Positions 10,377 through 63,960 of a stretch of DNA of 64,000 nt are shown here, piece by piece. The position numbers and the translations under genes are program-made. The DNA is taken from positions 2,337,745 to 2,401,744 of the forward strand of contig RPFO01000392.1 of NCBI GenBank assembly GCA_009746045.1, written 5' to 3'. This DNA is from Mesostigma viride (lineage: Eukaryota; Streptophyta; Mesostigmatophyceae; Mesostigmatales; Mesostigmataceae). Below the pieces are notes generated by a model that saw nothing but the letters and a program-made list of their open reading frames with translations, made no database searches and was not told the origin of the DNA. Within the stretch, counting starts at the first letter, position 1, and each line of letters opens with the position of its first letter.

Positions 10377-12513
<2,137 letters not shown>

Positions 12514-14266: not shown

Positions 14267-15101
<835 letters not shown>

Positions 15102-31857: not shown

Positions 31858-32016
31858 AGGAGTAGAGTACTAATTATAGCTTACTATATAATAGCTACAT
31901 TAGCAGAATAACGTAGGGCAGTCGCTTGGTTGATTGCTTGTGGGCATGTGCATGGCATTTTCCTCCTTCTTCCTCTCTCCTTCCTTCCTTCTCTTGTGGA
32001 TGTGGTACTGGTAAAC

Positions 32017-34140
32017 ATGCCGCGGGGTAAAAAGAAGGTACGCGGCACGACTAGGAGTCATTCCGAGGAGGGAGGTGCAGACTTGGATAGGCAGGGCAGC
32101 CCAGAGTACCAAGTACAGGAGGTATCACAACAGGGCTCGTCCTACCAGCAAGGCAGTCCTGTAGGTCACCCAGGTGAGCTGGCTAGTACCTCCCGTGAGC
32201 CGCGAAGGCCACGAGGAGCGGATAGGATGGATAATAGGGAGGAATACCAGCCGCAGCGAATGCAGGCTGAGTATAACCAGCTGATGGAACGGGCAGGTGA
32301 TGAGACCCGGCCCAGATCGAATCCCACGAGTGCAGCCCAGCACCAGTCAGTGCAGCCGCAGCAACGCCCGCCCGGGCAGCCGCAGCAGCACCCAGTGCAG
32401 TCCCCACAGCAGCATTCGGAACAGCAACAGCCGTTGCCGCAGCAGTGGCAGCAGCAGCCAGTACAGCAGCAGCAGCCACCGCCGCCGCAGCAGCAACAGT
32501 GGCAGCAGCCGCAGCAGCTTCCGCCGTTGCAGCAGCAGCAGCAGCCGCTAAGCCAGCCGACCGGGTCGCAGATGTTTGGTCCGCTTAGTCAGAACGCGAC
32601 CTATTATCACGCGCAACGTGCCCAACGATTACAACATCCCTGGGCGAGCGGTCGACGGGTTTCTTTTGGCAGTGACCTGCAGTCCAATGCGACATCGCTG
32701 TGGACCCAGGACGAGGCTAGGGTTCCACCGCCGGTATACGATGAGGCTGGGCCCGCGTCGTCCCATCCGGCGCGCAATGTCCCAGCAGCCGGACCTGCGC
32801 GGCCGAGCGTGTCGCATGGCAATAACCTCAACTTGAGTCGCATGGCACCCAGTGATCCTGGCTACGCGCATCCCTCGTCTGTCTGGCTACAACGCAGCGC
32901 GACTAGGTCAGCGCCTGCATCGGCAGATGACTCGTTGTCGATCTTTAATGTTCCGCCGTATCGCGCAGTGGGCGGACCTCGGGCCGACGCGTTTAAGGCG
33001 CCGCCCATGCCTGACTTTAAACCAGTGCCCAAGCTGCGCGCGACTATGAACCCTCGCGAGATCGACGAATGGACGCGTATGTGGGTACAGATCTACTGGG
33101 CGTGGTGCAACCACAATGGGTGGGAGCTAGCTACCGAGGTTCTTATCTCCTACGTCGTCACCAACTGCATGGATCCCTCAGTGGTCGGCATACTCAACTG
33201 TGAGAGTGTCGCGTCGCGCTTGTACCCTCGCACAGTAGAGGAGCTACTAGAGCGCATTGAGCGCAAGCTGGTGCCCCCTGACTGGAAGCTCCACGAGCGT
33301 CTGGCTTTTTCCAAGCTACGCCAAGGCACCACACCGTTCCGCGAGTTTCTGACAGAGTTTGAAGCATTCTCGGCTCGCCTTGAGGACTTGACCTGGACCG
33401 AATATAGGGCGCGGTTCATTGAGGCGCTGAGTCCGGAACTCCTAGATGAGGTGCTAAAGCGCTTTGCTGAGATACCGTGGGAGCAGTGGGATGTGATCGA
33501 GATCCAGCAGTACCTTCTAAAGGTGTCAGATGTGCTCGCACGCCGCCGCGCAGCGGTCACCTATCGGCATGCTGGTGCTGCACCGCGTCGCGTCCACTTC
33601 ACTACGGTGGACCAAGATGGGTCCTCTGAGGACATTATCGACCACGAGCAGGAGGACGGCGACTATGAAGCGCCCCAGGTCAATGCAATCGATGCGTCCA
33701 AGGCGCGATGCTTCCGGTGCGGCGAGGTCGGTCATCTCAAGAAGGACTGCACGCGACCACCACGGGATCGCGATCGTGGCGACGAGCAGACGTCACCCCG
33801 TTTCTCCGGGCCTGCCTTCGGTAAGCGCCCGGAACAAGCACGGCGCCCAGACCGGCCTCGCAACGCGGGCGAGCGCGCAGCCAAGTTGCAGGACGCCCGG
33901 CAGCGTCCCACGCAGCACCAGACGCCCCGCGCTACGGGTCCTTCGTTCCAGCGGGTGAACCGCGAGTTGAATGAGTTGTTCTCACAGCAACAGGACTCGG
34001 GTAATGGCGCCTCGGGGGTTATGGATGGCAAGGCGGTCGCCGGCTATGGGCATGGCGACGAGGAGGATGAGGTAGAGGGGGAAGAGTGGACCGGGCGGTC
34101 GAACGAGGCGGTCTCCCGGCCCTCCGTTCCTCGTGCGTAG
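32017..34140 (+). CDS. gag: Gag polyprotein of the chromovirus
   Basis: 707 residues from ATG 32017 (MPRGKKKVRGTT), chosen because the frame upstream is a hydrophobic run unlike gag. Residues 1-110 are polar, about 105-195 Gln/Pro-rich, about 340-520 contain the retrotransposon gag/capsid region (MNPREIDEWTRMWVQIYW, then LRQGTTPFREFLTEFEAF), and a CCHC zinc knuckle CFRCGEVGHLKKDC lies near residue 565. It builds the cytoplasmic virus-like particle and packages RNA. Gag and pol are in different frames; see the linker entry. Confidence 0.93.
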   Translation: MPRGKKKVRGTTRSHSEEGGADLDRQGSPEYQVQEVSQQGSSYQQGSPVGHPGELASTSREPRRPRGADRMDNREEYQPQRMQAEYNQLMERAGDETRPRSNPTSAAQHQSVQPQQRPPGQPQQHPVQSPQQHSEQQQPLPQQWQQQPVQQQQPPPPQQQQWQQPQQLPPLQQQQQPLSQPTGSQMFGPLSQNATYYHAQRAQRLQHPWASGRRVSFGSDLQSNATSLWTQDEARVPPPVYDEAGPASSHPARNVPAAGPARPSVSHGNNLNLSRMAPSDPGYAHPSSVWLQRSATRSAPASADDSLSIFNVPPYRAVGGPRADAFKAPPMPDFKPVPKLRATMNPREIDEWTRMWVQIYWAWCNHNGWELATEVLISYVVTNCMDPSVVGILNCESVASRLYPRTVEELLERIERKLVPPDWKLHERLAFSKLRQGTTPFREFLTEFEAFSARLEDLTWTEYRARFIEALSPELLDEVLKRFAEIPWEQWDVIEIQQYLLKVSDVLARRRAAVTYRHAGAAPRRVHFTTVDQDGSSEDIIDHEQEDGDYEAPQVNAIDASKARCFRCGEVGHLKKDCTRPPRDRDRGDEQTSPRFSGPAFGKRPEQARRPDRPRNAGERAAKLQDARQRPTQHQTPRATGPSFQRVNRELNELFSQQQDSGNGASGVMDGKAVAGYGHGDEEDEVEGEEWTGRSNEAVSRPSVPRA

Positions 34141-34498
34141 TGTCCCTGCCTACACGGATAGAGGTAGATGTAGGACAGGTAGATAAGATAGCGCAAGTCA
34201 ATAACGTCGGGCAGATAGACAGCTTAGATAAGGACACCCCGTTGGTAGCGAATACCAGCGTGGGCGCAGAATCAGTCGTTACAGTAGATAGTCGCACCCC
34301 GCTTGTAGCGAATACAAGTGCGGATGCATCCTTGGGCGAGACTTCTGCCCAAGCACGCAGCCGGCCACGGGTAGCGCAGCGAGCTCCGACCAGCCTACGC
34401 GCGCAACTCCGGCTGGTACCCGCAACTTGCTCCTGTTTAGGGGAGGTCTGGCTGTACCGGGATCAGCATTAGACCCCTACCTCAAGGACAAGACCGTC
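34141..34498 (+). other. Gag-pol linker with overlapping frames
   Basis: The gag frame ends at 34140. A second frame, open across 34086-34472, encodes an imperfect tandem repeat (TPLVANTS twice). The pol frame is open only from 34292. Going from gag to pol through this linker needs two successive -1 steps, or separate initiation at the pol ATG at 34499. No classical slippery heptamer is obvious at the overlaps. Confidence 0.5.
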
Positions 34499-37400
34499 AT
34501 GGACGTGCAGTTCATGGTGGACACGGGTGCGTCTACGTCGTTCATCAACGAGGCATTGGCGCGTCGCGCAGGATACGACATCCGGCCACATGCGACAGTG
34601 GTGAATGTGACCTATTCAGATGGTCGCAAGAGCCCCTCGCCTGGTCGGGTTGATATCAAGGCTGTGATTCAAGGCATCCCTGTGGAGCTCACAGCCACGG
34701 TCGCACCGCTGGGAGCTGCCGACATCATCATCGGCATCGACTGGCTGGACGCGCAGGATGTGGACATTAGCATTCGGCGTCGCGTGGTGTGGTTCCCTGA
34801 CGGTTCCTTTTGGAGCCCTGTCAGCGAATACCAAGTGCAGGGCCCCGACGTGCATAACATCACGCACGAGCGGGAAGTCACCCAGCCCCGCAACGCCTCG
34901 CAGATCCTCATGAGCCTCAAGTCACTGGAGAGTAAGCTGCGTCGAGGCAAGGAGTACTACATGTACCGTCTTGACCTCTCCAACATAGAGGTTCTCCTTA
35001 ATGAGATCGGCGTGGGGTTTACACCCGAGGAGACGGAGCGTTATAACGCGGTTCTAGCGCGACGGGAGAAGCTCTTTGACGAAAGCAAGCAGGAGTTTCC
35101 CCCGCACCGCTCAGTGCTCCACCGCATCCAGGTGAAGGAGGGCTATGGTCCCACGTCCTCCCCCATGTACCGCATGGGTCCAGTTGAGCTGGTGGAGCTG
35201 AAGAAGATCTTGATGGCGCTCTTGGAGCGGGGTCTCATCGAGCCTAGCAATAGCCCCTTCTCGGCTGGTGTGCTACTGGTCCCTAAGCCTGGGGGCAAGT
35301 GGCGGCTCGTCACGGACTACCGGAAGCTCAATGCTATCACGGTAAAGTCCAAGTACCCCCTTCCGCGCATCGACGATATCTTCAACCGCGTCCAAGGAGC
35401 CACGTGCTTTACAGTCCTAGACTGCGCGGATGGCTTCTGGCAGCTTCGCATCGCCCCGGAGGATTGTCACAAGACGGCGTTCAACACGCCCTTTGGGCAT
35501 TACCAGTTTCGGGTGGCCGCGATGGGTTTGTGCAATTCCCCCGCGAGCTTCCAGATGCTCATGAACGACATCCTCCGCCCTGTCATGGGAACCGCGCATC
35601 TTCCGCAGGTTTCCCGTGACCTCAAGGACCCCAACAGGGGCGTGAAGCCCCCGTGGTCCTACAAGCGCACATGCGCTCTCGCGTACCTGGACGACATCCT
35701 CGTGTACTCCAAGACTTTCGAGGATCACTTAGAGGACGTCGACACAGTGTTGCGCATTATGGAAGAGGAGCATCTTTCGGTCCGCAAGGCCAAGGTCCGC
35801 GCTGGACGCAGCGTGCCCTTTTTGGGTCACACCCTCTCTGCCGCTGGCGTCGCGACGGACCCCGCAAAGATTGCTTCCATCCAACAGTGGCCGACCCCGA
35901 CCGACGTCAAGGGTGTGCGCAGCTTTTTGGGTATCGCGTCATACTACCGACGCTTTATCCCCCGCTTCGCGACAATAGCTGCCCCCATCAACGCCCTCCT
36001 CAAGAAGGGTGTTCCCTTTGTCTGGTCGGAACCGTGCCAGCAGGCCTTCGAGGCCCTCAAGCACAGCTTGACCACAGCACCCGTGCTCGCTATCCCGGAT
36101 CCGTCAAGGCCCTTTGTGGTGGCCACGGACGCGAGCAAGGTTGCGATTGGCGGCGTCCTCCTGCAGGACCAGGGTCAGGGGTTACAGCCGGTTGAGTATA
36201 TCTCCCGCACCATGATCCCCGCCGAGCGTAACTACCCGGTGCATCAGCAGGAGCTTCTTGCTGTGGTCTACTGCTGTCACACTTGGCGCCATCATCTTCT
36301 CGGGGCTCAGTTTGACGTTGCGATTAGCGAGCAGGGGGACCTTGATCCCCACCGGCTGATCATCCACACGGACCATCGGCCCCTCACGCATCTGCTCGCC
36401 CAACCTAACTTGACGCCCCGTCAGGCGCGGTGGATGGAGTACTTGTCTCAGTTTGCCCCTTTCAAAATTCAGTACGTGAAGGGTGCAGAGAATGTGGTCC
36501 CGGACGCCCTTTCTCGGCGGGCGGACTACGCAGATTTTTATGAGACTATGGACGTACTTCACACCACATGTGGCTCCGCGCAGGAGCCTGGCTCGCCTTG
36601 TGGCGACCCAGGGTCGCCGCACAGTCGCTATCTGTTCCACACCGGTCGCACGACCCAGGACGACCTGTCTCCCGACTGGGAGGCCGCGCGCGAGGACGTG
36701 CGCGCCCCCGGGGAAAGGGAGGGGTCCCGGTCACGAGTGCCACTCAGCCACGTGGTACCGGCTCAGGGAATTTTTCACCTGCAGCGCATCGGGCCCCCTA
36801 CCATTTTTTCGGAGTACGTGCACCAAACCCTTGAGGAGGAGGCGGACACGTACACGATCACTTCTGTCCTGGAGACGTTGATTAGTCGGTTCACTGTCAC
36901 GGAGCCCGCGGCCTTAGAGGCAATCAGGTCGCACCCCAAGCAGATGGGCAAGCTCCCGTGCAAGTTCCAGGACGGGCGACTCTATGTCATGGTGAGGCCA
37001 GACTGCTGGCGCCTGTACGTCCCGGAGTTATGTCGAGCGGCTCTGCTCCATGAGCTCCATGACTCTCTCGCCGGTGGCCACCAAGGGATCCACCGCTTGC
37101 TGCCACGGGCCAGAAAGAACTTCTATTGGCCAGGCATGCGAGAGTACATTGAGACGTACGTGCGCGAGTGTCCATCATGTCAGATCATGAAGTCCCGCAA
37201 TACGGGCTCACAGGCGGTCCCCCAGACCCTACCAGACCCGATGGGCCCTTGGGATTCCCTGATGATGGATTTTGTTGGCCCCTTCCGGAAGACCAAGAAT
37301 GGCAACAGCATGATTCTGGTTTTCCTGGACCGTTTGACGCGCATGTGTCACCTGGCACCATGTCCGGCCGAACTCACGGCCGAGGCTTGCGCTAAGCTAT

Positions 37401-38380
37401 ACCTTCACCACGTGTTCAGGTACCACGGACTCAGCCGGCAATTCATATCGGACCGAGACAAGCTGTTCACGGCCCGCTTCTGGCAGGAGTTCTTTGAATG
37501 CCTGGGCACCAAGGTGTCGCTGGGGACAGCATATCACAGCTCGTCCTCCCACCTGGTGGAGAGGCTGAACCGCACAGTGCAAGAGACCATGCGCCACTAC
37601 ACCGACGCGGTGGGAAGCAACTGGGAAGAGTTCTTGGGTTTGGTGGAGTTCTCCCTGAATAACGCCCCCCAGGCAGCTCATGGCTTCACACCATTCTTCC
37701 TCAACACGGGCAGGCATCCGCTCACGCCGACTGACCTTCTCACAAGCCCAGCCTTAGCTGAAAAGTCGGTCCGGCGAGACACCCTCGAAGGGGTGGAGAG
37801 GCTGCTGGTCCAGATGCGCCAGGCCCATGACAGTGCGGTCAAGGGCTACCGGGCCGCCGCAGAGCGCTACATGGCGAGGACTGCTGGCCGCCTAGATGCG
37901 CGCACGCCGGCCATCGAGGTGGGCGACTGGGTACTGGTGGAAGGCCCCCGCCTAGGACGTTTCTCTGAGAAGGTAGAGGGTGAGCTCAAGACAAAGCTCC
38001 GTCCTATGTTCCTGGGGCCACACAAGGTTCTGGAGAAGCTCGGAGATGTGATGTTCAAGGTGGACATCCCGAGCTCCTGGAACACTTCCTCCAACTTCCA
38101 TCGAGACCAGCTCAAGTTATACCACCAGAACTCCATCCAAGGTCGGCTCAACCCGCCGGCCCCTGTCGAGTACAACCCCGAGACTGGAGAACAGGAAGAC
38201 GAGGTGGCCGAGATCGTGGACCACCGGGACATCAAGCGTGGGAGAGGTAGACAGCGACAGTATCGCGTACGGTGGCGTTTTGCTCAGCATGATTACGAGG
38301 ATTCGTGGCGAACCGAGAATGAGCTAGAAGGGTGTGAACGTCTGCTTCGCGAGTATAAGGCCAAGCATGCCCTCCACTAG
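34292..38380 (+). CDS. pol: Pol polyprotein: protease, RT, RNase H, integrase, chromodomain
   Basis: Open from 34292; first ATG at 34499. Domains in order: aspartic protease (FMVDTGASTSF, near 34513); RT with LRIAPEDCHKTAFNTPFGHY and the catalytic YLDDILVYS near 35684; RNase H (VVATDASKVAIGGVLL, later HTDHRPLTHLL and YVKGAENVVPDALSRR); integrase with HHCC zinc finger (37050-37190) and a D-D-E core (MMDFVGPF, ISDRDKLF, VERLNRTV); C-terminal chromodomain (VAEIVDHRDIKRGRGRQRQY, then YRVRWRFAQHDYEDSW), which in chromoviruses directs integration to marked chromatin. Oddities: about 25 extra residues between the RT LMNDILRP block and YLDD (QVSRDLKDPNRGVKP), and HSSSSHLVERLN where HPQTDGQTERLN is usual. 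No internal stops, so it is probably active. Confidence 0.95.
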   Translation, partial: SHPACSEYKCGCILGRDFCPSTQPATGSAASSDQPTRATPAGTRNLLLFRGGLAVPGSALDPYLKDKTVMDVQFMVDTGASTSFINEALARRAGYDIRPHATVVNVTYSDGRKSPSPGRVDIKAVIQGIPVELTATVAPLGAADIIIGIDWLDAQDVDISIRRRVVWFPDGSFWSPVSEYQVQGPDVHNITHEREVTQPRNASQILMSLKSLESKLRRGKEYYMYRLDLSNIEVLLNEIGVGFTPEETERYNAVLARREKLFDESKQEFPPHRSVLHRIQVKEGYGPTSSPMYRMGPVELVELKKILMALLERGLIEPSNSPFSAGVLLVPKPGGKWRLVTDYRKLNAITVKSKYPLPRIDDIFNRVQGATCFTVLDCADGFWQLRIAPEDCHKTAFNTPFGHYQFRVAAMGLCNSPASFQMLMNDILRPVMGTAHLPQVSRDLKDPNRGVKPPWSYKRTCALAYLDDILVYSKTFEDHLEDVDTVLRIMEEEHLSVRKAKVRAGRSVPFLGHTLSAAGVATDPAKIASIQQWPTPTDVKGVRSFLGIASYYRRFIPRFATIAAPINALLKKGVPFVWSEPCQQAFEALKHSLTTAPVLAIPDPSRPFVVATDASKVAIGGVLLQDQGQGLQPVEYISRTMIPAERNYPVHQQELLAVVYCCHTWRHHLLGAQFDVAISEQGDLDPHRLIIHTDHRPLTHLLAQPNLTPRQARWMEYLSQFAPFKIQYVKGAENVVPDALSRRADYADFYETMDVLHTTCGSAQEPGSPCGDPGSPHSRYLFHTGRTTQDDLSPDWEAAREDVRAPGEREGSRSRVPLSHVVPAQGIFHLQRIGPPTIFSEYVHQTLEEEADTYTITSVLETLISRFTVTEPAALEAIRSHPKQMGKLPCKFQDGRLYVMVRPDCWRLYVPELCRAALLHELHDSLAGGHQGIHRLLPRARKNFYWPGMREYIETYVRECPSCQIMKSRNTGSQAVPQTLPDPMGPWDSLMMDFVGPFRKTKNGNSMILVFLDRLTRMCHLAPCPAELTAEACAKLYLHHVFRYHGLSRQFISDRDKLFTARFWQEFFECLGTKVSLGTAYHSSSSHLVERLNRTVQETMRHYTDAVGSNWEEFLGLVEFSLNNAPQAAHGFTPFFLNTGRHPLTPTDLLTSPALAEKSVRRDTLEGVERLLVQMRQAHDSAVKGYRAAAERYMARTAGRLDARTPAIEVGDWVLVEGPRLGRFSEKVEGELKTKLRPMFLGPHKVLEKLGDVMFKVDIPSSWNTSSNFHRDQLKLYHQNSIQGRLNPPAPVEYNPETGEQEDEVAEIVDHRDIKRGRGRQRQYRVRWRFAQHDYEDSWRTENELEGCERLLREYKAKHALH

Positions 38381-41391: not shown

Positions 41392-42162
41392 CTATGGCTG
41401 GTTGTGTACCGTGCGTTAGCAGTGCACGTGACTAGGTACTGTAAGGTGGCACAACTAGGCAAACATTCTAAGCATGGCTGCCATGGCGGCATTCAGTGAC
41501 TACCATTGAAGTAAAGCTAGGGCTACAAGCTATTCTAGCCCGCTGGGGGCGTCCACATCTTGTGGTTGATCATCAGGTCCCCGCCCCTCCAGTACACCTT
41601 GGGCTTCTGGGGGTCTGGCCACAGGTCACGTCGCTGCTGCTGCTGAGCGGGGGTCAGGTCGTCGTCCAGCGTCCAGGTGAGGTCGTGCAACCGCTTGCGA
41701 CGATCGAGAGAGGAACCGCTGCTTGTCCTCACGGGAGGGGAAGGTGAGCAGGACTGGTGGGGGAGCCGCCTTGTCCCGTGAGTGGGGAAGGCGGTGGCAC
41801 CCACGCAGTTCTATACCTCACCTACCAGGCCCATGAGGGTAAGGAGCTGGTCCTTAAGCATGTCGGCAAGGGAGGTTGACGTCTCACCTGGCTTCTGGGG
41901 GAAGCGACGCAGCACCATGCACCCGGCAGTCGCGGCGGGCGCGGTCGGTGGCCTCCCGTTGTTGAGCCTGGCGAAGGTCTTCAAGCTCCTGGAGCTTCGT
42001 AGCGATGGCGTCGGTGGTGGAGGCGGTCGCTGTCCGCAGCAGGTCCGCATAGGAGAGGGGCGGGAGGTCACCAGCATCCAGCCGGGGTGGCTGGGATGCG
42101 ATGGTGGCCGTCTGCTCCGCTATCTTTGGGACCTGTGAGGCAAGGGACTCGGTGTGGGCGGT

Positions 42163-44189
42163 AGTTACGTTAAATAGTGCCGGAACCTTTTGCCGCCTGA
42201 GGCAAATCGGGCCGGAACACTATAGTTAGGTTAAATAGTGACGGAACCTTTTGCCGCCTGAGGCAAATCGGTCCGTCACACTATTTTGCCCGGAATAACC
42301 ACTTCCGGGCACCCAAGTTAATTCGGCCGAATTAACTTGGGTGCCCGGAAGTGGTTATTCCGGGCAAAATAGTGTGACGGACCGATTTGCCTCAGGCGGC
42401 AAAAGGTTCCGTCACTATTTAACCTAACTAAAACCTGGCCTCGTGGAGGGGGACGAAGAGCCCGAGACATCCGCCTAGGCCGCTGAGCACGCACCACTAA
42501 ATGCGCCGGAGCTGCCTCAGTGAGGATTCGAACCCCTGACCTCCAAGGTGCACAGGTTTTAGTTACGTTAAATAGTGCCGGAACCTTTTGCCGCCTGAGG
42601 CAAATCGGTCCGTAACACTATTTTGCCCGGAATAACCACTTCCGAGCACCCAAGTTAATTCGGCCGAATTAACTTGGGTGCTCGGAAGTGGTTATTCCGG
42701 GCAAAATAGTGTTACGGACCGATTTGCCTCAGGCGGCAAAAAGGTTCCGTCACTATTTAACCTAACTAAAACCTGGCCTCGTGGAGGGGGGACGAAGAGC
42801 CCGAGACATCCGCCTAGGCCGCTGAGCACGCACCACTAAATGCGCCGGAGCTGCCTCAGTGAGGATTCGAACCCCTGACCTCCAAGGTGCACAGGTTTTA
42901 GTTAGGTTAAATAGTGACGGAACCTTTTTGCCGCCTGAGGCAAATCGGTCCGTAACACTATTTTGCCCGGAATAACCACTTCCGAGCACCCAAGTTAATT
43001 CGGCCGAATTAACTTGGGTGCTCGGAAGTGGTTATTCCGGGCAAAATAGTGTTACGGACCGATTTGCCTCAGGCGGCAAAAAGGTTCCGTCACTATTTAA
43101 CCTAACTACTATTTTGCCCGGAATAACCACTTCCGAGCACCCAAGTTAATTCGGCCGAATTAACTTGGGTGCTCGGAAGTGGTTATTCCGGGCAAAATAG
43201 TGTTCCGGCCCGATTTGCCTCAGGCGGCAAAAGGTTCCGGCACTATTTAACGTAACTAAAACCTGGCCTCGTGGAGGGGGGACGAAGAGCCCGAGACATC
43301 CGCCTAGGCCGCTGAGCACGCACCACTAAATGCGCCGGAGCTGCCTCAGTGAGGATTCGAACCCCTGACCTCCAAGGTGCACAGGTTTCCGAGCACCCAA
43401 GTTAATTCGGCCGAATTAACTTGGGTGCTCGGAAGTGGTTATTCCGGGCAAAATAGTGTGACGGACCGATTTGCCTCAGGCGGCAAAAGGTTCCGGCACT
43501 ATTTAACGTAACTAAAACCTGGCCTCGTGGAGGGGGGACGAAGAGCCCGAGACATCCGCCTAGGCCGCTGAGCACGCACCACTAAATGCGCCGGAGCTGC
43601 CTCAGTGAGGATTCGAACCCCTGACCTCCAAGGTGCACAGGTTTTAGTTACGTTAAATAGTGCCGGAACCTTTTGCCGCCTGAGGCAAATCGGGCCGGAA
43701 CACTATTTTGCCCGGAATAACCACTTCCGAGCACCCAAGTTAATTCGGCCGAATTAACTTGGGTGCTCGGAAGTGGTTATTCCGGGCAAAATAGTGTTCC
43801 GGCCCGATTTGCCTCAGGCGGCAAAAGGTTCCGGCACTATTTAACGTAACTAAAACCTGTGCACCTTGGAGGTCAGGGGTTCGAATCCTCACTGAGGCAG
43901 CTCCGGCGCATTTAGTGGTGCGTGCTCAGCGGCCTAGGCGGATGTCTCGGGCTCTTCGTCCCCCCTCCACGAGGCCAGGTTTTAGTTACGTTAAATAGTG
44001 CCGGAACCTTTTGCCGCCTGAGGCAAATCGGTCCGTCACACTATTTTGCCCGGAATAACCACTTCCGAGCACCCAAGTTAATTCGGCCGAATTAACTTGG
44101 GTGCTCGGAAGTGGTTATTCCGGGCAAAATAGTGTGACGGACCGATTTGCCTCAGGCGGCAAAAGGTTCCGGCACTATTTAACGTAACT
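42163..44189. repeat. Family A palindromes (seven units plus one arm fragment)
   Basis: Arm fragment 42163-42222. Palindromes: 42224-42429 (perfect, 206 bp, centre at CGGCCG 42324-42329), 42561-42767 (arms of two subtypes), 42900-43107 (perfect, 208 bp), 43109-43257 (left arm cut), 43387-43513 (left arm cut), 43646-43851 (perfect, 206 bp), 43984-44189. Each arm holds a hairpin A (AATAGTG...CACTATT), a hairpin B (GCCCGGAA-TAACCAC-TTCCGGGC, some copies with TTCCGAGC) and half of the central hairpin. Subtypes AGTTACG/GCCGG and AGTTAGG/GACGG, and three inner subtypes, are shuffled among copies. Confidence 0.95.
42430..43983. repeat. Family A spacers with B-box
   Basis: Five ~129-bp spacers: 42430-42560, 42768-42899, 43258-43386, 43514-43645 and, inverted, 43852-43983. 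Ends form an inverted repeat AAAACCTG/CAGGTTTT that continues into the palindrome termini. Near one end is a perfect pol III B-box GGTTCGAATCC (minus strand, 42524-42534 in the first spacer). Near the other end, on the opposite strand, TGGCCTCGTGG matches the A-box TGGCNNAGTGG at 10 of 11 positions. No complete tRNA can be folded. Confidence 0.85.
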
Positions 44190-44239
44190 GCGGTGATGGC
44201 TTCAAGCTTCTTCATGAGCACGCCGCACTAGGCTAGCCA

Positions 44240-45949: not shown

Positions 45950-48900
45950 TCAAATACCCAACAACTTGTGTCTGAGCTCCACAAAACGTGGCTCGGGTAG
46001 TGCCTTGGTGAGCATGTCGGCGATCATCGCTGCCCCAGGAAGGTGAGACACCTGAACGGTGCCATCCGCGACCTTCGCGCGAATGTAGTGGTACTTGACG
46101 TCGATGTGCTTGGTACGCCGAGGGTGAACAGGGTCTCGTGACAGAGCCACAGCACCAGTGTTGTCGCAAAACACCTGAATTGGCCCTGAGGCCGGGTCAC
46201 CCAACTCCTTGGTGATGGTGAGAAGGGGAACCACCTGCTGCGTGACACCGCACAGGGCCATGTACTCGGCCTCACAGGTGGACAGGGCTGGAGTGGGCTG
46301 CTTGCGACTGGTCCACTCCACCGCAGCACCGCGGTACATGACCACGTTGCCAGTGATTGACTTGCGGTCCACAGGATCGTTTGCCCAGTCGGCATCCGAG
46401 TAGGCCACCAGCCCCCCCTGCCCCGAGTAGGACAGACCCAGGTCCTTGGTGTGTACCGCGTACTGAAGCACCCGGCGTGCCAGCCCAAGGTCGCTTACAG
46501 TAGGGTTTTTCATATTCTGAGTCAGCAGGTTGACTGCGAATGCCAGGTCAGGCCGAGTGCATCCCATCGCATACAGGAGTGCCCCGGTGATCGCTTGGTA
46601 GACGCGAGTGTCGTCCGCGTTGAGAAGCCCCCCCTCACCACGGGGGGTGTTGGGGACGATGGGCGTCTTCACCGCCCGTGGGGAGACCCCAAAGCGCTCA
46701 GCGAGGGCCTCCAGTACGGGCCTTGGTGCAGAAAAACTGTGCGCGCCGGCGGGTCGAGGACCAGGGAGACCCCCAGAAAGAGGGAGGGGGCATCCGTCTC
46801 GGTGATCTGGAAGCGCTGGGACACCCGTTGGGTCCACTGCGATAGCCACTCCGCCGAGGAGTGGGAGACCAGGAGATCGTCGACATGGACGAAGGCAAAA
46901 CCACCAACATACAGGAACAGACACGTGTCCGTGGTGCTCTGGACAGCGCCAGTCTCATGGATGAGGTAGTCCCGGAGCGTGTGGTGCCAGTTCCGGGGCG
47001 CCTGTTTGAGCCCATAGAGGCTCCGCCGGAGGCGCCAGAGGTACGTTTGGCCAGTGGGGTCGCGCTCCTCAAAGCCCTTGGGGGGAAGGACATACACGTC
47101 CTCCTCCAACTCAGCATAGAGGAACGCGGTGCGGACATCCAGCTGCCGGATGGGGTGGCCAGCAGTGCCAGCACGAGCCAAGCCCAGGCGCACGGTGGCA
47201 GCACGGACGGTGGGAGCAAAAGTCTCACCGAAATCAATGCCCTCGCGCTGTGCAAACCCCTTGCACACAAACCGGGCCTTGCACCGCCCATCAGCTTTCT
47301 GGGCGAAGACCCACTTGGTGGGTAGGAGCTTGGCACCGCGCGGAAGATCACGCATATGCAGAAGCTCGTAAACCTGGTGCTCCTGGAGGCTGGCCAGCTC
47401 ACTCTCCATGGCCGTGCGCCATTCCGGCAAGGCAAGGGCGGCAGCGGGAGAGGAGGGCACGGACGCAGGCTGGCTATGAAAAGCAGCAGCGAAGCACAGG
47501 TCAGCGACAAGTGAGTGATGCGCGTGGATCCGTGCAGCCTTGGTGACAGGTTGATCCGGCCAGGAAGAAAGCGCGTCATCCAATACATCATCGCCCCCGA
47601 AACCAGGGGGAGCGGGGGTGTTACTGCCATGAGAAAGGTCGCCACACAAGGCAGCACCACGGGAACCCCACACGGGGAGGAGACCTGCAGAGGCACCAGG
47701 GGACGCCGGAGGAGAATAGCCGGTGCTGTCAGCCGTGCTCTCCAGGTCAACCGAGGTACTCAAATGCGGCGGAGGCATCCCCGCCCCGGCGTGTTCATAT
47801 GACGCCGCAGAACGCGAGTGGCCAGAGGCCTGTCCGCGCAACAGAGGGGCATGCTGTCGAGCATCTGACACGGTGAGGTAAGATGTCGGCGCCGAGGCAG
47901 GAGCCGGAGCCGTCGGAGCAGGGCCGTTCCGCACAAGTGCCTGGATGGCCGCAGCGGCGGGGGGAGAACGAAACGCTCAGGAGTCCCCCCGATGCTGACA
48001 TAGCTGTCCTCACGGCCTGCGGGCAAGGCAGTGGAGGGCGTTGCCGGCCCCCCAGAGTCCTCGGCAGAGGCAGAGGGTAACTGCAAAGGGGCAGGAGTCA
48101 GCATGTCGGCGGGAAAGAGGTCGGCCTCCGCAAAGGGGGCCGCCGGGAGCCACTGCGCAGCCTGCGGGGCCCGGTTGCGCCACGTCTCGTCGAACTGCAC
48201 GTGCTTGCGCTCGATGACACGCCCGCCGCCCGTCGCCTTGTCGGGCACCCATACGAGGTAGGCCGGGGAGTCAAGCTTGTATCCCACGAAGAGGCCATCC
48301 TCAGCGCGAGAATCAAACTTCTCACGGGCTGCCCCCTCAACCAAGACGTGGGAGGGGCAGCCAAACACACGCATGCCGGATAAATCCGCAGGGCGCCCAT
48401 ACATGAGGAAGTAGGGCGTTGCGTGCTCCGGGTTGCTGCGGCAGGGCAGCCTGTTGATGATGTAGATGGCGCATGCAAAGGCTAGAGCCCAGAACTCCTT
48501 GCCGAGGCCAGCATGCGCCAGCATGCTCCTGGTCATGCTAACTGCGACGCCCCAGAATCGCTCCGCCACGCCGTTCTGCTCCGGCGTATAGGGGGACGAG
48601 AACTCTTGCCGCACGCCATACTCGGCGCAGACGGCGCGCCAGTCCTGGCCAGTGAAAACCGCGTCTTGGTCGGAGCGAAGCTCCACAGGCGCCGTGGCCG
48701 CGGACGCCCGGAACGGCTTGATCTCCGTGGCCAGGAAGTGACGCAGGCTCCCAACGGCAGCGTCCTTCGTCTTCAAGAAGTAAACCCAGTGAAAACGAGT
48801 GGCTTCATCCGTGATGCCCAGGACATACCGCCAGTCCCCCAACACGGCAGGGGTCCGCATGGGACCTAGCAGGTCGCAGTGCAGGCGATGGCGAGGGGTC

Positions 48901-49598
48901 GCGCAGCGTGGCGTCGTGCTGGGGGGAAAGCTGCTCCGCCGCAAGTGACCGGCAGGGCAGGAAGGACACGTGGGAGCCTTGGGACCGTGGGTCACCATGT
49001 TTGAGGCGGGGTCGGCGGCTAGCCGAGCAATACGATCCGCGCCAGCGTGTCCGAGGCGCAGGTGCCACTGCATCAGGTCCACGGGGGCGGCTGATGTGGC
49101 GAGGGCATGGGGCGCCACCCCGCGGAGCAAGTAAATGCCGTCACACTCCACGAGGGGGAACGTGCGGGTCCCCAAAGTGAGGCGCAGGTGCTTAAAGTCC
49201 ACATCATGGCCGGCTTTAAAGAGCTGGCTCACCGAGAGTAGGCGGGCCTGAAGGCCTGGGACATACAAAGCTGGGCCGAGGTGCACGTCCGGGGTGCCGA
49301 GCCGGAGAAGCAGAGGGCCCCTGCCGCCCGCATGCAGATTGCCGCCCGAGCCGGTGATGCGCAGCCGGAAGGCGGGATCAAATCCATCGCCAAAGTCCGC
49401 CCGGTGAGGCGTCATGTGGTACGTGGCACCCGTGTCAACCACCCACTCCGGGGCACACCTAGCCGAGGCCGTTGCGGCCGTGTGAAGCACAGAAGGAGCG
49501 GTGGTTGAGGAACCAGCCGTCGAGTCCGAGGAGGTGCTGGGGCGGGGTGCCGAGAGACGACTGCCCGAGCGGGACAGGGAAGGCGCAAGGCCGTGCAC
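45950..49598 (-). pseudogene. pol: Copia pol: protease, integrase, RT, RNase H, two frame changes
   Basis: Three consecutive frames on the minus strand. 49598-47760: protease WVVDTGATYHMTPH, GAG-pre-integrase MQWHLRLGHAGADRIARL with CPSC, integrase D-D-E (HCDLLGPM, ELRSDQDAVF, SPYTPEQNGVAERFW). A change at the G6 run 47959-47964 moves to 47934-46669: RT with LPTKWVFAQKADGRCKARFV, QLDVRTAFLYAELEEDVYV, and the catalytic FVHVDDLLV (a variant of YVDD). A second change near 46713-46740 leads to 46924-45950: RNase H YSDADWANDPVDRKSITGN, STCEAEYMALCG and the end LRHKLLGI. Both changes look like single-base indels, so either recent decay or assembly error. Confidence 0.88.
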
Positions 49599-49613
49599 TG
49601 GACGAAGCGAGGC

Positions 49614-51055
49614 CTAGCTGCCCGTGGGGCTGCACACCGTCGCGCAGGGAAGCACCCAAAGGGTTGGCGCGCATGCAGGGAAGCACACAAAGGGCCTCGA
49701 CCCACGTGGAACGCGTATGGACATCGTCTCCAAGGGAGGCAGGCCTGCGGCGGTGTGATGGGCGTGCCCGGCGCCGTCACCGCGGAGGTGAGCAGGGCGC
49801 TGGGCGGGATGGGCAGTCCAGCAGGTGGCGTCGTCATGTCCAGGCTTGGCGCAGACGGAGCAGGGCGGCCTGCGACCACGCCCGACCCCTGCGCCACCAC
49901 CGCGACCACCACCGGCTCGCCGCGCCCCCCGCTGCTGCCGCCATGGCCGTGGCCGTTGCCGTGGCCAGTGCCGTGGGCGCGGCCGTTGCCGTGGCCGTTG
50001 CCGTTGCTGTACGTTGCCGTTGCCGTTGCCGTTGCCGTTTCCGCTTCCGGTGCCGTTGCTGTTGCCGTTGCCGTTGCCGCGGGCACCGCCATTCCGTGGG
50101 CCACGCCCCCGGCCAGGGGTATGGTATGTACGCGTGGTTGGAGGCAGAGCCAGAATCTGCAGGGGACGGGAGGCCACCCGTCAGCAGATCTTCAACTTCC
50201 ATCAGGCGCTGCCGCAGGACAGGAACAGTCTCGACCTCGTCAAGACGGAGGGAGATCAGCGCAGGCCGGTACCCCGCGCGCAGACCGCTGAGGACGCTGG
50301 CAATGAAGGCAGCGACTGGGAACGTAATGCCTGCAGCCTGGAGCTTGGCGTACAGCAGTTCCGAGCGGTTCACATACGGCTCCACAGTCTCGCGAGCAGT
50401 TTGACGAAGCTGGGCCATTTGTTTCCACAAGTCCAGACGCATGGACTTGGTGAGCTTGCCATGCTCATAGAGACCTGGATGAGCTTGGTGATGGCCAGAC
50501 TGCCCAGGCGACGATCCAGGGGGAGCGTCTGCATCAAGGCACGCGCAGGCCCATCGACGACGGCCAACAAGGCAACGTAAAGGAGCCGATCCAGTTGCAC
50601 GTTCTGGACAACACCTGCCAGCACTCCAAGGAGGCCAGCATAAAGGGAAACAAGGCCCAAAAATGGTCCTTAAAAGGGATCCACAGCGTCCAATCTGAGC
50701 CGGTAAAAACCTTGACCCCAGGAACATCCTTCAAAAGCTCCTTGCAAGCCACAAAGGAGGCTCGGGCGGGGCCCCCCCCCGCCGTACCGCGGCTCAAACC
50801 ACCACCGTCAACAGCCGGATTCTCACCGTCGGGAGCACCGAGGGCGGCGTCTTCGTCACCACCTGGCGGGTGCAAGGCCAGGGCAGCCAGCCCAGCTGCG
50901 GCGTCAAAAAATACTTCGCCTGGGAGACCCGAATCGGTAAGGGTTACGGACGATGCAGTCAAAGCGGCCAGACCGGCAGCGTCGTCGGCATCAAAATCGT
51001 TACTGCCAGCAGCGCGACTCGCGGAAGCGGCCTGGCTACGAGTGCCGGAAGCCAT
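49614..51055 (-). pseudogene. gag: Copia gag with multiple frame changes
   Basis: Starts at ATG 51055 (MASGTRSQAASASRAAG) and is spread over at least three frames: FTGSDWTLWIPFKDHFWALF (to ~50660), LDRLLYVALLAVVDGPARAL (about 50600-50470), LTKSMRLDLWKQMAQLRQTA and YVNRSELLYAKLQAAGITFP (to ~50150), then a Gly/Asn-rich low-complexity block and the zinc knuckle CSVCAKPGHDDATC near 49840. Order is normal for copia UBN2-type gag. The repeated GGCAACGGCAAC tract at 50000-50080 is a likely site of length errors. Confidence 0.75.
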
Positions 51056-51302
51056 TCCAGCAAAAAACAGCAGAAAACTCCTAAAAAAAAAAAGGTAACG
51101 TTGAGCAAAGATTCCGGCCAGGAATCGAACCAAGCACCTTTTGTATACGCGCCAGACGGGAATCAAACCTCCGCCTACGGTGTCGTCATGCAAATCTCGC
51201 CGAAATACACAAATCTAAAGTCGTACGCGAGCAGAGCCTCGGGAAACGACTTTTACCAGCGGTAAGCAGGTCGAAAGGCGTGCGATCCGCACTCCGATGC
51301 CA

Positions 51303-52689: not shown

Positions 52690-52870
52690 GCCGAAGCCTT
52701 GTACTGGTGGAGCTTTGCTGAGTAGAATAGGTAGGGTTTTCTCGATTAGATTAGCTTAGACGGAGTTAGATTAGTTCGGTTGCGCGGCTTTGTCCCCCCT
52801 CCATCCATCCATGGGAATATGTGCTACATGATCTCCCAACGGAGTCATGTTTATATAGTTCAATTTTATT
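52690..52870 (+). mobile_element. LINE 3' UTR fragment
   Basis: Diverged 3' end: TTGCGCGGCTTTGTCCCCCC, ATGTGCTACATGATCTCCCA and the hairpin CTCCCAACGGAG (52833-52844), then a T-rich tail. Confidence 0.75.
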
Positions 52871-53006
52871 TTGTTTTTTGTACTGGTGGCAGACGGCAGC
52901 ATACTTCCGTGCCTAGGGGCAGCACCATCTTGCGGGCAACCCCCCCCCCCCCCTCTATGGTACCTGCCAAAATTTTGACTGCAGATTTGGGTTCAGCTCG
53001 CCAAGT

Positions 53007-54104
53007 GCTATAGTTAGGTTAATATTGTGCGGAAACCTTTTTGCCACTTGGGCTACTCAGGTTCCGCACAATATTACCGGCGATAACCACTCGCCGGACA
53101 CTCAAGTTCACGACGTTGTGAACTTGAGTGTCCGGCGAGTGGTTATCGCCGGTAATATTGTGCGGAACCTGAGTAGCCCAAGTGGCAAAAAGGTTTCCGC
53201 ACAATATTAACCTAACTAAAACCTAGCCTCTTGGGGCGAGGACGAATCACTAGGCTCGGAACACCCGTATGCATGAATATGATCGAATATAAGCATCTCG
53301 TTGGTGCAAATATCGATATGAATATGATCGAATATGAGCATCTCCTTGGTGCGCATATGATTAGAGCCGGGTGCCAAATCGGAACGAATTATTCCCCAAA
53401 TAATCCGCTTCCGAGTGGATTCGAACCTGCGCCCCGCAAGGATCCAGGTCTTAGTTAGGTTAATATTGTGCGGAAACCTTTTTGCCACTTGGGCTTCTCA
53501 GGTTCCGCACAATATTACCGGCGATAACCACTCGCCGGACACTCAAGTTCACACCGTCGTGAACTTGAGTGTCCGGCGAGTGGTTATCGCCGGTAATATT
53601 GTGCGGAACCTGAGTAGCCCAAGTGGCAAAAAGGTTTCCGCACAATATTAACCTAACTAAGACCTGGATCCTTGCGGGGCGCAGGTTCGAATCCACTCGG
53701 AAGCGGATTATTTGGGGAATAATTCGTTCCGATTTGGCACCCGGCTCTAATCATATGCGCACCAAGGAGATGCTCATATTCGATCATATTCATATCGATA
53801 TTTGCACCAACGAGATGCTTATATTCGATCATATTCATGCATACGGGTGTTCCGAGCCTAGTGATTCGTCCTCGCCCCAAGAGGCTAGGTTTTAGTTAGG
53901 TTAATATTGTGCGGAAACCTTTTTGCCACTTGGGCTTCTCAGGTTCCGCACAATATTACCGGCGATAACCACTCGCCGGACACTCAAGTTCACACCGGTG
54001 TGAACTTGAGTGTCCGGCGAGTGGTTATCGCCGGTAATATTGTGCGGAACCTGAGAAGCCCAAGTGGCAAAAAGGTTTCCGCACAATATTAACCTAACTG
54101 CTAT
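53007..54104. mobile_element. Composite foldback element B (1,088-bp nested palindrome)
   Basis: Insert 53012-54099 flanked by GCTAT (53007-53011 and 54100-54104). Layout palindrome-spacer-palindrome-inverted spacer-palindrome: 53012-53217, 53218-53452, 53453-53658, 53659-53893, 53894-54099. The whole is symmetrical about 53555.5, so identical peptides appear on both strands. Termini AGTTAGGTTAATATTG match family A. Arms: hairpin A (AATATTGTGCGGAA with TTCCGCACAATATT), hairpin B (CCGGCGA-TAACCAC-TCGCCGG) and a central ACTCAAGTTCAC hairpin. No transposase. Confidence 0.9.
53218..53893. repeat. Family B spacers (235 bp, inverted pair) with B-box
   Basis: 53218-53452 and its inverse 53659-53893. 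B-box GGTTCGAATCC on the minus strand at 53417-53427. The other end (TAGCCTCTTGG) resembles an A-box at 9 of 11 positions. Outer ends correspond to family A (ACCTG-N-CCTTG before the B-box; TTCGTCC...GAGGC.AGGTTTTAG at the other side). The middle contains a ~43-bp tandem duplication around ATGAATATGATCGAATAT. Confidence 0.85.
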
Positions 54105-55590: not shown

Positions 55591-58500
55591 AATGTAACTA
55601 CGATTTACGAAGCCCGAAAACTTTGGCCGAGGCCGTAGGCCGAAAGTGGGGCCGTCCCCCGCGCCCCCTAGCGCGGGAGCGGACGACGTACAGGACCGTA
55701 GCGAGATGGCCAATCGCGTAGTACAAAGAAATTACCCAAACCTTAGAGATCGACTGTCAGGAGTTCTGAACGGGTCTGAAACGCTGAACATGTTCAGGGT
55801 TTCGCGGGCAGGTGGGGCGTCTCGCCAATCCGCGCGGCCTCAGGACGGTACAGCGCGTTGACTAATTTAACCGTCAAACGTTTGGGTCGCGAATGGATCT
55901 CTCCTCAAACTTTCCCCAGTTTCCCGTTGCACCACTTTGGACGGGGACCAACCGGTGCACGCCGTTTCGAATAACGCGCTCGAGGTTAGGGCCACACGTA
56001 ACGAAATTTTCAAGTATCTGACGCCGAAATATCATTATTGTATCGAATGGTATGCTGAAATTCCTTGTGGTTCAGTCCGAGTTGACAAAATTTCATTTTC
56101 GATACGAACGTGACGAAATTTCCAAGTATCTCACGCTCGGAGAGCTTCCACTGTGTTCACGGGGAAGGGTCCGTTGCGCGTGGCGCACGGAGGCGGTTCG
56201 TCCCGGTCGGAATCGTCCGCTCGCGCGTCCTCCGTGGAAGGGTCTTGGCGCGTCGCGCGGGCCGGTGCGGTTGGCGTCCAGAAGGTCGACTATCGGCCTC
56301 TGGGCCGCTAGCGGCGAGTCACGTCCTCTCAAGTCGGAGAGGGGGGGCGATAGCCCCCCCTCCCCCACTTTTTTCTTGTCCCCTAATGTAACTACGATTT
56401 ACGAAGCCCGAAAACTTTGGCCGAGGCCGTAGGCCGAAAGTGGGGCCGTCCCCCGCGCCCCCTAGCGCGGGAGCGGACGACGTCCAGGACCGTAGCGAGA
56501 TGGCCAATCGGCGTAGTACAAAGAAAACCCCCAAACCTTAGAGATCGACTGTCAGGAGTTCTGAACGGGTCTGAAAAACTGAACATGTTCAGGGTTTCGC
56601 GGGCAGGTGGGGCGTCTCGCCAATCCGCGCGGCCTCAGGACGGTACGGCGCGTTGACTAATTTAACCGTCAAACGTTTGGGTCGCGAATGGATCTCTCCT
56701 CAAACTTTCCCCAGTTTCCCGTTGCACCACTTTGGACAAGGGGACCAACCGGTGCACGCCGTTTCGAATAACGCGCTCGAGGTCAGGGCCACAACGTCAA
56801 TGGAATGCGATTTTCTGAACGGATGGATCAAATTTGCAGGACGGTTGGAAGGTTCAGAACCGAACTGGCGTTCAGTCAGGGTGGGGCGAAATAGTTCAGG
56901 CGGAAATTGGTTGTGTTTCAGTCCGAGCGTTGAAATTTGTCAGAATTTCATTGGAGATACGACCGTAACGAATTTTCCAAGTATCTGACTCCGAAATATC
57001 TCGAAAGTTTATCGAATGGTATGCTGAAATTCATTGTGGTTCAGTCCGAGCTGAAAATTGGTCAGAATTTCATTTTCGATACGAACGTGACGAAATTTCC
57101 AAGTATCTCACGCTTGGAGAGCTTCCACGGTGTTCACGGGGAAGGGTCCGTTGCGCGTGGCGCACGGAGGCGGTTCGTCCCGGTCGGAATCGTCCGCTCG
57201 CGCGTCCTCCGTGGAAGGGTCTTGGCGCGTCGCGCGGGCCGGTGCGGTTGGCGCCCAGAAGGTCGACTATCGGCCTCTGGGCCGCTAGCGGCGAGTCACG
57301 TCCTCTCAAGTCGGGGAGGGGGGGCGAGAGCCCCCCCTCCCCCACTTTTCTCTTGTCCCCTAATGTAACTACGATTTACGAAGCCCAAAAACTTTGGCCG
57401 CGGCCGTAGGCCGAAGGTGGGGCCATCCCCCGCGCCCCCTAGCGCGGGAGCGGACGACGTCCAGAACCGTAGGGAGATGGCCAATCGGCGTAGTACAAAG
57501 AAAACCCCCAAACCTTGGAGATCGACTGTCAGGAGTTCTGAACGGGTCTGAAAAACTGAACATGTTCAGGGTTTCGCGGGCAGGTGGGGCGTCTCGCCAA
57601 TCCCCGCGGCCTCAGGACGGTACGGCGCGTTGACTCTTTTAAACGTCAAACGTTTGGGTCGCGAATGGATCTCTCCTCAAACTTTCCCCAGTTTCCCGTT
57701 GCACCACTTTGGACAAGGGGACCAACCGGTGCACGCCGTTTCGAATAACGCGCTCGAGGTCAGGGCCACAACGTCAATGGAATGCGATTTTCTGAACGGA
57801 TGGATCAAATTTGCAGGACGGTTGGAAGGTTCAGAGCCGAACTGGCGTTCAGTCAGGGTGGGGCGAAATAGTTCAGGCGGAAATTGGTTGTGTTTCAGTC
57901 CGAGCGTTGAAATTTGTCAGAATTTCATTGGAGATACGACCGTAACGAATTTTCCAAGTATCTGACTCCGAAATATCTCGAAAGTTTATCGAATGGTATG
58001 CTGAAATTCATTGTGGTTCAGTCCGAGCTGAAAATTGGTCAGAATTTCATTTTCGATACGAACGTGACGAAATTTCCAAGTATCTCACGCTCGGAGAGCT
58101 TCCACGGTGTTCACGGGGAAGGGTCCGTTGCGCGTGGCGCACGGAGGCGGTTCGTCCCGGTCGGAATCGTCCGCTCGCGCGTCCTCCGTGGAAGGGTCTT
58201 GGCGCGTCGCGCGGGCCGGTGCGGTTGGCGCCCAGAAGGTCGACTATCGGCCTCTGGGCCGCTAGCGGCGAGTCACGTCCTCTCAAGTCGGAGAGGGGGG
58301 GCGATAGCCCCCCCTCCCCCACTTTTTTCTTGTCCCCTAATGTAACTACGATTTACGAAGCCCGAAAACTTTGGCCGAGGCCATCAGAGTGCAATCGTAC
58401 GTTATACGCGTTATACGGTCACGGTGGAGTATAATGTATAATACGGTATAATACGGTATAATACGGTATTATACGTTTTCGTACGGACACACTCAGAATA

Positions 58501-63460: not shown

Positions 63461-63769
63461 ACGTTCAGATTTCCAAATCTCAAGTAAAGTTCGGCGCAAC
63501 TTTCTGAACGGGGGCAGTTGACGAGCAGCATTCCTCCGGACGAATGAATTGCGTTCCATACTTGCGCAAAATTTTGAAAGGTAGCTTGCGTGCAGCCCTA
63601 CTAAAATTTGCGCGGACGTTCAGATTTCCAAATCTCGGGTAAATTTCGGCGGAACTTTCTGAACGGGGGTAGTTGGCGGGCAGCGTTCCTCCAGACGAAT
63701 GAAATGCGTTCCATACTAGCGCAAAATTTTGAAAGGTAGCTTGCGTGCAGCCCTACTAAAATTTGCGCG
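63461..63769 (+). repeat. 155-bp tandem repeat, two copies
   Basis: 63461-63615 and 63616-63769, beginning ACGTTCAGATTTCCAAATCT and ending CCCTACTAAAATTTGCGCG, about 90% alike by eye. Confidence 0.9.
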
Positions 63770-63960
63770 AAGTGTGGGACTGAAAATTCGTAACGGAAAC
63801 TTTTTGGTAGTTGCCGTCACTTCCTTTTGTGCAAACGTGTGGGAGTGAAAATTCGTAACGGAAACTTTTTGGTAGTTGCCGTCACTTCATTTTGCGCGAG
63901 TGTTGGGCTGAAAATTCGTAACGGAAACTTTTTGGTAGTTGGCGTCACTTCCTTTGGTTC
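63770..63960 (+). repeat. ~64-bp tandem repeat, three copies
   Basis: Units at about 63770, 63836 and 63899, each with TGAAAATTCGTAACGGAAAC and TTTTTGGTAGTTG.CGTCACT. The array continues into short GCTGAAATTC repeats at the window end. Confidence 0.9.

Follow-up and report, generated by a model that had tools for sequence, protein, structure and literature searches.

The locus considered here raises two questions: what kind of mobile DNA consists of long palindromes alternating with short spacers, and how much of such an array moves at one time. It lies in a stretch of 64,000 nucleotides (the window; assembly GCA_009746045.1, contig RPFO01000392.1, positions 2,337,745 to 2,401,744) from Mesostigma viride, a streptophyte alga of the earliest-diverging clade according to the accessible text of PMC7027972. 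A Mesostigma viride protein matches the LHC ORF at 2102-2878 (-) with 98% identity across 99% of the ORF; among the best 120 of 3,521 matches the next highest identity is 77%. In the preliminary description the block at 42163-44189 was treated as one composite foldback element. Base-by-base reading confirmed GCGGT at both borders of the 2,027-bp block as well as the alternation of palindromes (P, 206-208 bp) and spacers (S, 131-132 bp; S' where inverted) throughout. We consider it likely that a non-autonomous DNA transposon of foldback type occupies the block in two copies, one nested in the other, and that a third copy, from a diverged family, lies at 53012-54099. The features of the block are the following, with the strand given for the spacers.

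42158-42162, outer target duplication GCGGT, left copy (flank comparison)
42163-42223, first 61 bp of the first palindrome of the outer element, ACTAT copy included
42219-42223, inner target duplication ACTAT, left copy (flank comparison)
42224-43107, inner element P S P S P (884 bp), with ends AGTTAGG..CCTAACT
42224-42429, palindrome i1, 206 bp, perfect
42430-42560 (+), spacer S, 131 bp
42561-42767, palindrome i2, 207 bp; hybrid in its outermost part, perfect over the inner 78-nt arms
42768-42899 (+), spacer S, 132 bp
42900-43107, palindrome i3, 208 bp, perfect
43108-43112, inner target duplication ACTAT, right copy (flank comparison)
43113-44189, remainder of the outer element, with 42163-42223 amounting to 1,138 bp: P S P(deleted) S P S' P
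43113-43257, remaining part of palindrome o1; with 42163-42223 equal to o3 (0/206 differences)
43258-43388 (+), spacer S, 131 bp, terminating at the deletion junction
43389-43513, palindrome o2, 125 bp; about 80 bp of the left arm deleted
43514-43645 (+), spacer S, 132 bp
43646-43851, palindrome o3, 206 bp, perfect; a 724-bp palindrome is centred on it
43852-43983 (-), spacer S', 132 bp, inverted with respect to the other four of the block
43984-44189, palindrome o4, 206 bp, perfect
44190-44194, outer target duplication GCGGT, right copy (flank comparison)

Read from left to right, the block contains a 61-bp P stub, i1, S, i2, S, i3, a partial P, S, o2, S, o3, S' and o4, and its ends are AGTTACGTTAA and TTAACGTAACT. 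The seven palindromic units counted previously were found again, with the restriction that five are complete and contiguous (206, 207, 208, 206 and 206 bp), one is split and one has a deleted arm. Instead of three perfect palindromes there are four among the five contiguous ones (42224-42429, 42900-43107, 43646-43851 and 43984-44189), and the split unit is also perfect after rejoining. Five spacers had been given at about 129 bp each; their number is correct, their length is 131-132 bp. A perfect palindrome of 724 bp (43387-44110) is made up of S, o3, S' and the neighbouring parts of o2 and o4.

The stub at 42163-42223 and the incomplete palindrome at 43108-43257 are two halves of one P. Excision of 42224-43107 together with one ACTAT yields a perfect 206-bp palindrome that shows 0/206 differences from the P at 43646-43851. 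The block is an 884-bp inner element inside the first P of a 1,138-bp outer element. Since two nested insertions explain the block exactly, restored palindrome included, its proposed insertion as a single unit is refuted. GCGGT at both borders would suit a 2,027-bp composite that entered in one event; the ACTAT duplication around 42224-43107, whose excision gives back an intact and identical palindrome, leaves this reading with a probability close to nil. The idea of arrays moving as units has to be given up for 42163-44189 and holds for the inner PSPSP and for PSPS'P at 53012-54099. The nesting serves as a clean internal control, the occupied and the restored target being present within one sequence.

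It had further been stated that removal of the block restores a LINE ORF1-like frame. With the flanks joined, a frame is indeed open over about 100 codons, only about 12 of which lie right of the junction, and a Pfam search with the 92 aa left of the junction (E up to 0.001) matched no family. The frame also remains open for a few codons inside the element. For these reasons the restored frame was dismissed as evidence.

The third element is situated in the same manner between two copies of a 5-bp sequence and is composed as follows.

53007-53011, target duplication GCTAT, left copy
53012-54099, third element (1,088 bp), from the second family, layout P S P S' P
53012-53217, palindrome b1, 206 bp, 1 site differing between the arms
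53218-53452 (+), spacer S, second family, 235 bp
53453-53658, palindrome b2, 206 bp, 3 sites differing between the arms
53659-53893 (-), spacer S', second family, 235 bp, inverted
53894-54099, palindrome b3, 206 bp, perfect
54100-54104, target duplication GCTAT, right copy

Most of this element can fold back on itself through inverted repeats, its 541-nt arms being 99% complementary. To its left, a repeat at 52714-52877 has copies of 78-81% identity at 14109, 18123, 23259 and 27305; it is perhaps a LINE 3' end, and the third element may have inserted beside a LINE-type tail.

Identical 5-bp flanks were found in 3 of 34 end pairs, a pair being a left and a right end 100 to 4,000 bp apart: 42163/44189 (GCGGT), 42224/43107 (ACTAT) and 53012/54099 (GCTAT). 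Random flanks would give 34/1024 = 0.03 matching pairs, a rough value as many internal flanks are fixed spacer ends. The matches fall exactly at the outer edges of the three elements. All insertions, three only and all inside one 64-kb window, have the form P(SP)n (n = 3 for the outer, 2 for the inner and 2 for the third element) and differ in their 5-bp duplications. Each lies between one such pair. The reading as a mobile element of foldback type is supported. AGTTA(C/G)GTTAA..TTAAC(C/G)TAACT terminal inverted repeats occur at all outer edges. The end motif AGTTA(C/G)GTTAAATAGTG has 13 exact matches in the 64-kb window compared to 0.01 expected, and the P at 43984-44189 folded as DNA with z = -31.9; on these two grounds a chance origin is excluded. 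A palindrome scan of the window (at least 38 of 50 pairs) gave nine centres, none outside the arrays, and a covariance-model search of the window for more arms returned the two known arrays only, with 18 full arms and partial matches.

The 18 full arms (12 of family 1, 6 of family 2) comprise 8 distinct sequences, which show a mean column identity of 85% when those of both families are aligned. Four arms taken from both families were folded singly as DNA, and each formed two hairpins, A and B, located behind the end motif (z -2.87, -3.35, -5.66 and -7.06). The inner element (ACTAT, 42219-42223 / 43108-43112) inserted into another copy, close to the base of that copy's hairpin A. Hairpin B carries a 7-nt loop, TAACCAC, common to both families. 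Comparison of the hairpin B stem in arms i1 and b3 revealed 4 unchanged, 3 compensated and 0 one-sided pairs out of 7, and 0 in slid controls; this count derives from a manual alignment extended to both sides of the constant loop, with two families and with i1 as the best-paired arm. In the other 4 of the 5 distinct arm types of family 1, a C-A mismatch replaces one of these 7 pairs. RNAalifold on a MAFFT alignment, which places a gap inside the hairpin B stem, gave a weak consensus of -3.56 kcal/mol without hairpin B and with 2 both-sided changes in hairpin A. One base of hairpin A is unpaired in arm o4, and by eye i2L appears alike. With only two families, the changes in the hairpins are possibly not independent.

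Differences between the perfect palindromes are mirrored: 3/3 between o3 and o4 as well as 3/3 between i1 and o4 occur in both arms, although such differences are not independent where copies of P share descent. Since they are mirrored, the arms were copied from one another, and changes in one arm must often have been transferred to the other arm of the same P. In family 1, with o1 taken as rejoined and o2 omitted due to its lost arm, 5 of 6 P have identical arms compared to 1.0 expected for random pairing of the same arms (p = 0.0008), and 4 of 5 compared to 0.67 if o1 and o3 are counted once (p = 0.003). Family 2 has one perfect P out of three; the arms of b1 differ at 1 site and those of b2 at 3. 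Template-switch correction of quasi-palindromes by the host is a known process. It is enough to account for the mirroring of the arms, a transposition cycle with hairpin copying being the bolder alternative.

The spacers end in AAAACCT and AGGTTTT, with AGGTCTT at one family 2 end and AGGTTT at the o2 deletion junction, and they abut the palindromes in the same register everywhere except at that junction. Beyond the first 8 nt their ends form imperfect inverted repeats; in a shuffle test the score was reached by 1 of 300 shuffles for family 2 and by an unconvincing 19 of 300 for family 1. The folding z was -3.69 in family 2; in family 1 the two strands gave -2.41 and -1.69. Between the spacers of the two families, blastn detected one common stretch of 29 nt at one end (83% identical), and at the other end both have AA(A/G)ACCTG and a B box, as read by eye. 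The sequence GGTTCGAATCC, which we take to be the Pol III B-box consensus, is found in 7/7 spacers on the same relative strand. GGTTCGANTCC is likewise present in 7/7 spacers, with one further match in the 64 kb at 51131 (-). A-box-like matches occur inside the elements in 9 of 45 cases in the window, all in the second family. A Pol III promoter (B box) may thus be present in the spacer and would give rise to a short RNA.

No tRNA was found by ARAGORN or at the Rfam gathering score, and none is among the matches listed by Rfam at E up to 10 for the stretches 43500-44189 and 53012-53900. The same two stretches gave two weak matches to beta_tmRNA of the tRNA clan (E 0.23 and 1.6); two more matches to the clan, lower in score, went unnamed in one listing, and a weak tRNA match may be among them. 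Rfam matches to microRNA, viral-UTR and other families were discarded, their scores being below gathering and long hairpins being prone to such matches. By eye, family 1 shows a pairing between GCCTCAG of the arm and CTGAGGC of S, which family 2 lacks. A complete tRNA across the P/S border, read by eye, is a lead only, and the same applies to a Pol III unit with the A-box-like TGGCAAAAAGG in the arm and, within S, the B box and a terminal TTTT. Separately, 51090-51180 (-) contains two tRNA T-arm-like motifs, GGTTTGATTCC and GGTTCGATTCC, near the 5' side of copia-like ORFs (45950-51193, -); the second motif is the sole B-box match outside the palindromic elements.

As to class, the earlier statement that none of hAT, piggyBac, Mutator, CACTA and Helitron fits could be upheld for duplication length and ends, given the features of these classes (8 bp; TTAA; 9-11 bp; CACTA ends with 2-3 bp; no duplication, respectively). 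SINE-type retroposition is marked by a duplication of variable length and a 3' tail, whereas the duplication here is fixed at 5 bp and the ends are palindromic. FB-like transposons such as Galileo and Mutator/foldback are similar in their long inverted repeats, a duplication of fixed length and variation by recombination between repeats; they differ from the present elements with their 5-bp duplication and their loopless closed palindromes, mostly perfect, that alternate with short spacers as P(SP)n. The target duplication of the P superfamily is 7-8 bp. Multimers of MITEs and nested MITEs also provide composite runs between terminal repeats that can move as one. In comparison, two modules alternate here, and the spacers abut the palindromes in a fixed register except at the o2 junction. 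Transib shares the 5-bp duplication and has CACWATG-like ends instead of AGTTA(C/G)GTTAA. Galileo is assigned to the P superfamily in the accessible part of PMC4168063. TDD-4 and TDD-5 (Ginger2) have 5-bp target duplications with TGTNR ends in contrast to AGTTA here (accessible text of PMC2836005), and duplications of about 4, 15 or 25 bp are given for IS481EU (PMC10045372, likewise in part). None of IS481EU, Ginger2 and Transib fits these elements.

Foldback transposons match the elements in kind. Exact ends, 5-bp duplications, nesting and mirrored differences can be observed directly. The elements are most likely non-autonomous foldback-type DNA transposons moved by a predicted staggered-cut transposase, and are probably a poorly known kind of mobile DNA from an early green alga. 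The sequence features carry the classification as far as a non-autonomous DNA transposon family of unassigned superfamily; the undescribed mobile system of the preliminary description, though conceivable, goes further than that.

Fixed 5-bp duplications at exact ends point towards a DDE-type transposase or integrase acting in trans. Such an enzyme, presumably supplied by another element, would bind the end motif and the two subterminal hairpins of the arm, and would join the ends to the target with a 5-bp stagger. Because each P carries a usable left and right end, any run from P to P could serve as a mobile substrate, from which n = 3, 2 and 2 would follow. Recombination between palindromes would alter the array length n and flip the orientation of S, and the arms of P may be kept identical via hairpin copying, either by intrastrand template switching or by cruciform repair. 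A more far-reaching proposal is a new superfamily of streptophyte algae with folded single strands as the working form, palindromes as structural end sites (hairpins A and B, fixed TAACCAC loop) that hairpin copying makes perfect again, exchangeable Pol III spacer cassettes and chains growing as P(SP)n, any run of which is mobile with a 5-bp duplication. We regard it as unlikely, slightly more so in view of the C-A mismatch in hairpin B.

Several other origins have to be weighed against a non-autonomous DNA transposon. LTRs end in TG..CA, and 5S rRNA is a Pol III gene. The closest architecture is that of tandemly arrayed TRIMs, for which 4-6-bp duplications, arrays such as L3I2 and L5I4 of the form L(n+1)I(n), and one maize array with two inverted TRIMs are described in the accessible text of PMC4717578. 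With P as a miniature LTR and S as the internal part, mobilized by the reverse transcriptase and integrase of an LTR retrotransposon, the elements would read L4I3 (outer), L3I2 (inner) and L3I2 (third); the 5-bp duplication falls within the TRIM range, and a tRNA-like B box is located in S. The terminal unit is, however, a palindrome with AG..CT ends in all three elements and not TG..CA, and spacer orientation is mixed in 2 of 3 elements. Moreover, reading four kinds of P-adjacent spacer end by eye gave no consistent primer-binding site and no polypurine tract; TGG at offset 6 was seen at one S1 end and at a non-homologous S2 end. The TRIM Cassandra, a short arrayed element with 5S rRNA-like sequence in its LTRs (PMC4717578, same portion), differs in that the B box here is of tRNA type and lies in the internal part rather than in the terminal repeat, the element itself being palindromic. 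Overall, a TRIM origin appears unlikely.

Perfect palindromes with mirrored differences, hairpins within the arms and the head-to-head dimer layout of the third element (P S P S' P, with its 541-nt complementary arms) would also be expected for an element copied through a linear or single-stranded intermediate with folded ends. This is distinctly unlikely, as the inner P S P S P is in direct orientation and the outer element is mixed, host palindrome correction explains the mirroring without such an intermediate, and the three copies are without a replication gene, being too short to hold one. Descent from a Polinton, polinton-like virus or virophage, as a short non-autonomous form inserted by an integrase of retroviral type, is in our judgement very unlikely. 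Polintons resemble the elements in 5'-AG ends and short fixed duplications, yet their target duplication is 6 bp and not the 5 bp seen in 3/3 insertions, and pattern scans of IMG/VR were without an informative match. That such viruses are common across protist genomes (PMC10120064, accessible part) speaks in favour of this origin. An assembly artefact, for instance from palindromic long reads or a collapsed satellite, might be suspected in view of the perfect 724-bp palindrome at 43387-44110, and is highly improbable since three target duplications, two diverged families of like build and a nesting with restored palindrome are unlike misassembly. A resemblance of the GTTAGGT core to integron-like attC was dropped because the 5-bp duplication does not fit.

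To search for relatives of the elements, the conserved core was used as a pattern. No relative was found in IMG/VR viral contigs or in prokaryote genome contigs, and a plasmid similarity search with the second family only (53012-53893) gave none; in viruses, prokaryotes and plasmids, the collections scanned, no relative need be expected. No copy bearing a transposase was seen. Five IMG/VR pattern matches were attributed to chance, their excerpts being without similarity beyond the pattern (a palindrome scan was made on three of the five). At the level of titles and abstract beginnings, with subscription journals thinly covered, no description of such an element was found in the literature, and "palindrom" has 0 occurrences in the main texts of two Mesostigma genome papers.

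In genomes, long perfect palindromes tend to be unstable. A family whose multi-unit mobile arrays retain several perfect 206-bp palindromes with mirrored changes would offer a natural system for studying the maintenance and copying of palindromes. It would also give Mesostigma, near the base of the plant lineage, an unassigned transposon family with 5-bp duplications.

Abundant transposable elements are reported in the accessible text of one Mesostigma viride genome paper, which is based on an assembly of SMRT reads with an optical map (PMC6947507). In the window, Ty3/gypsy-like ORFs with zinc knuckle, protease, RT, RNase H, integrase and chromodomain occupy 31930-38380 (+). A LINE-like reverse transcriptase ORF (12507-14120, +; RVT_1) is bordered by near-perfect tetranucleotide arrays, (GATT)426 at 10809-12513 and (ATTG)209 at 14267-15101, which are probably microsatellite tails of LINE copies. 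More short tandem repeats are located at 58436-58475, 59859-59980 and 63461-63955 (GTATAATACG-type decamers; 155-bp, 65-bp units).
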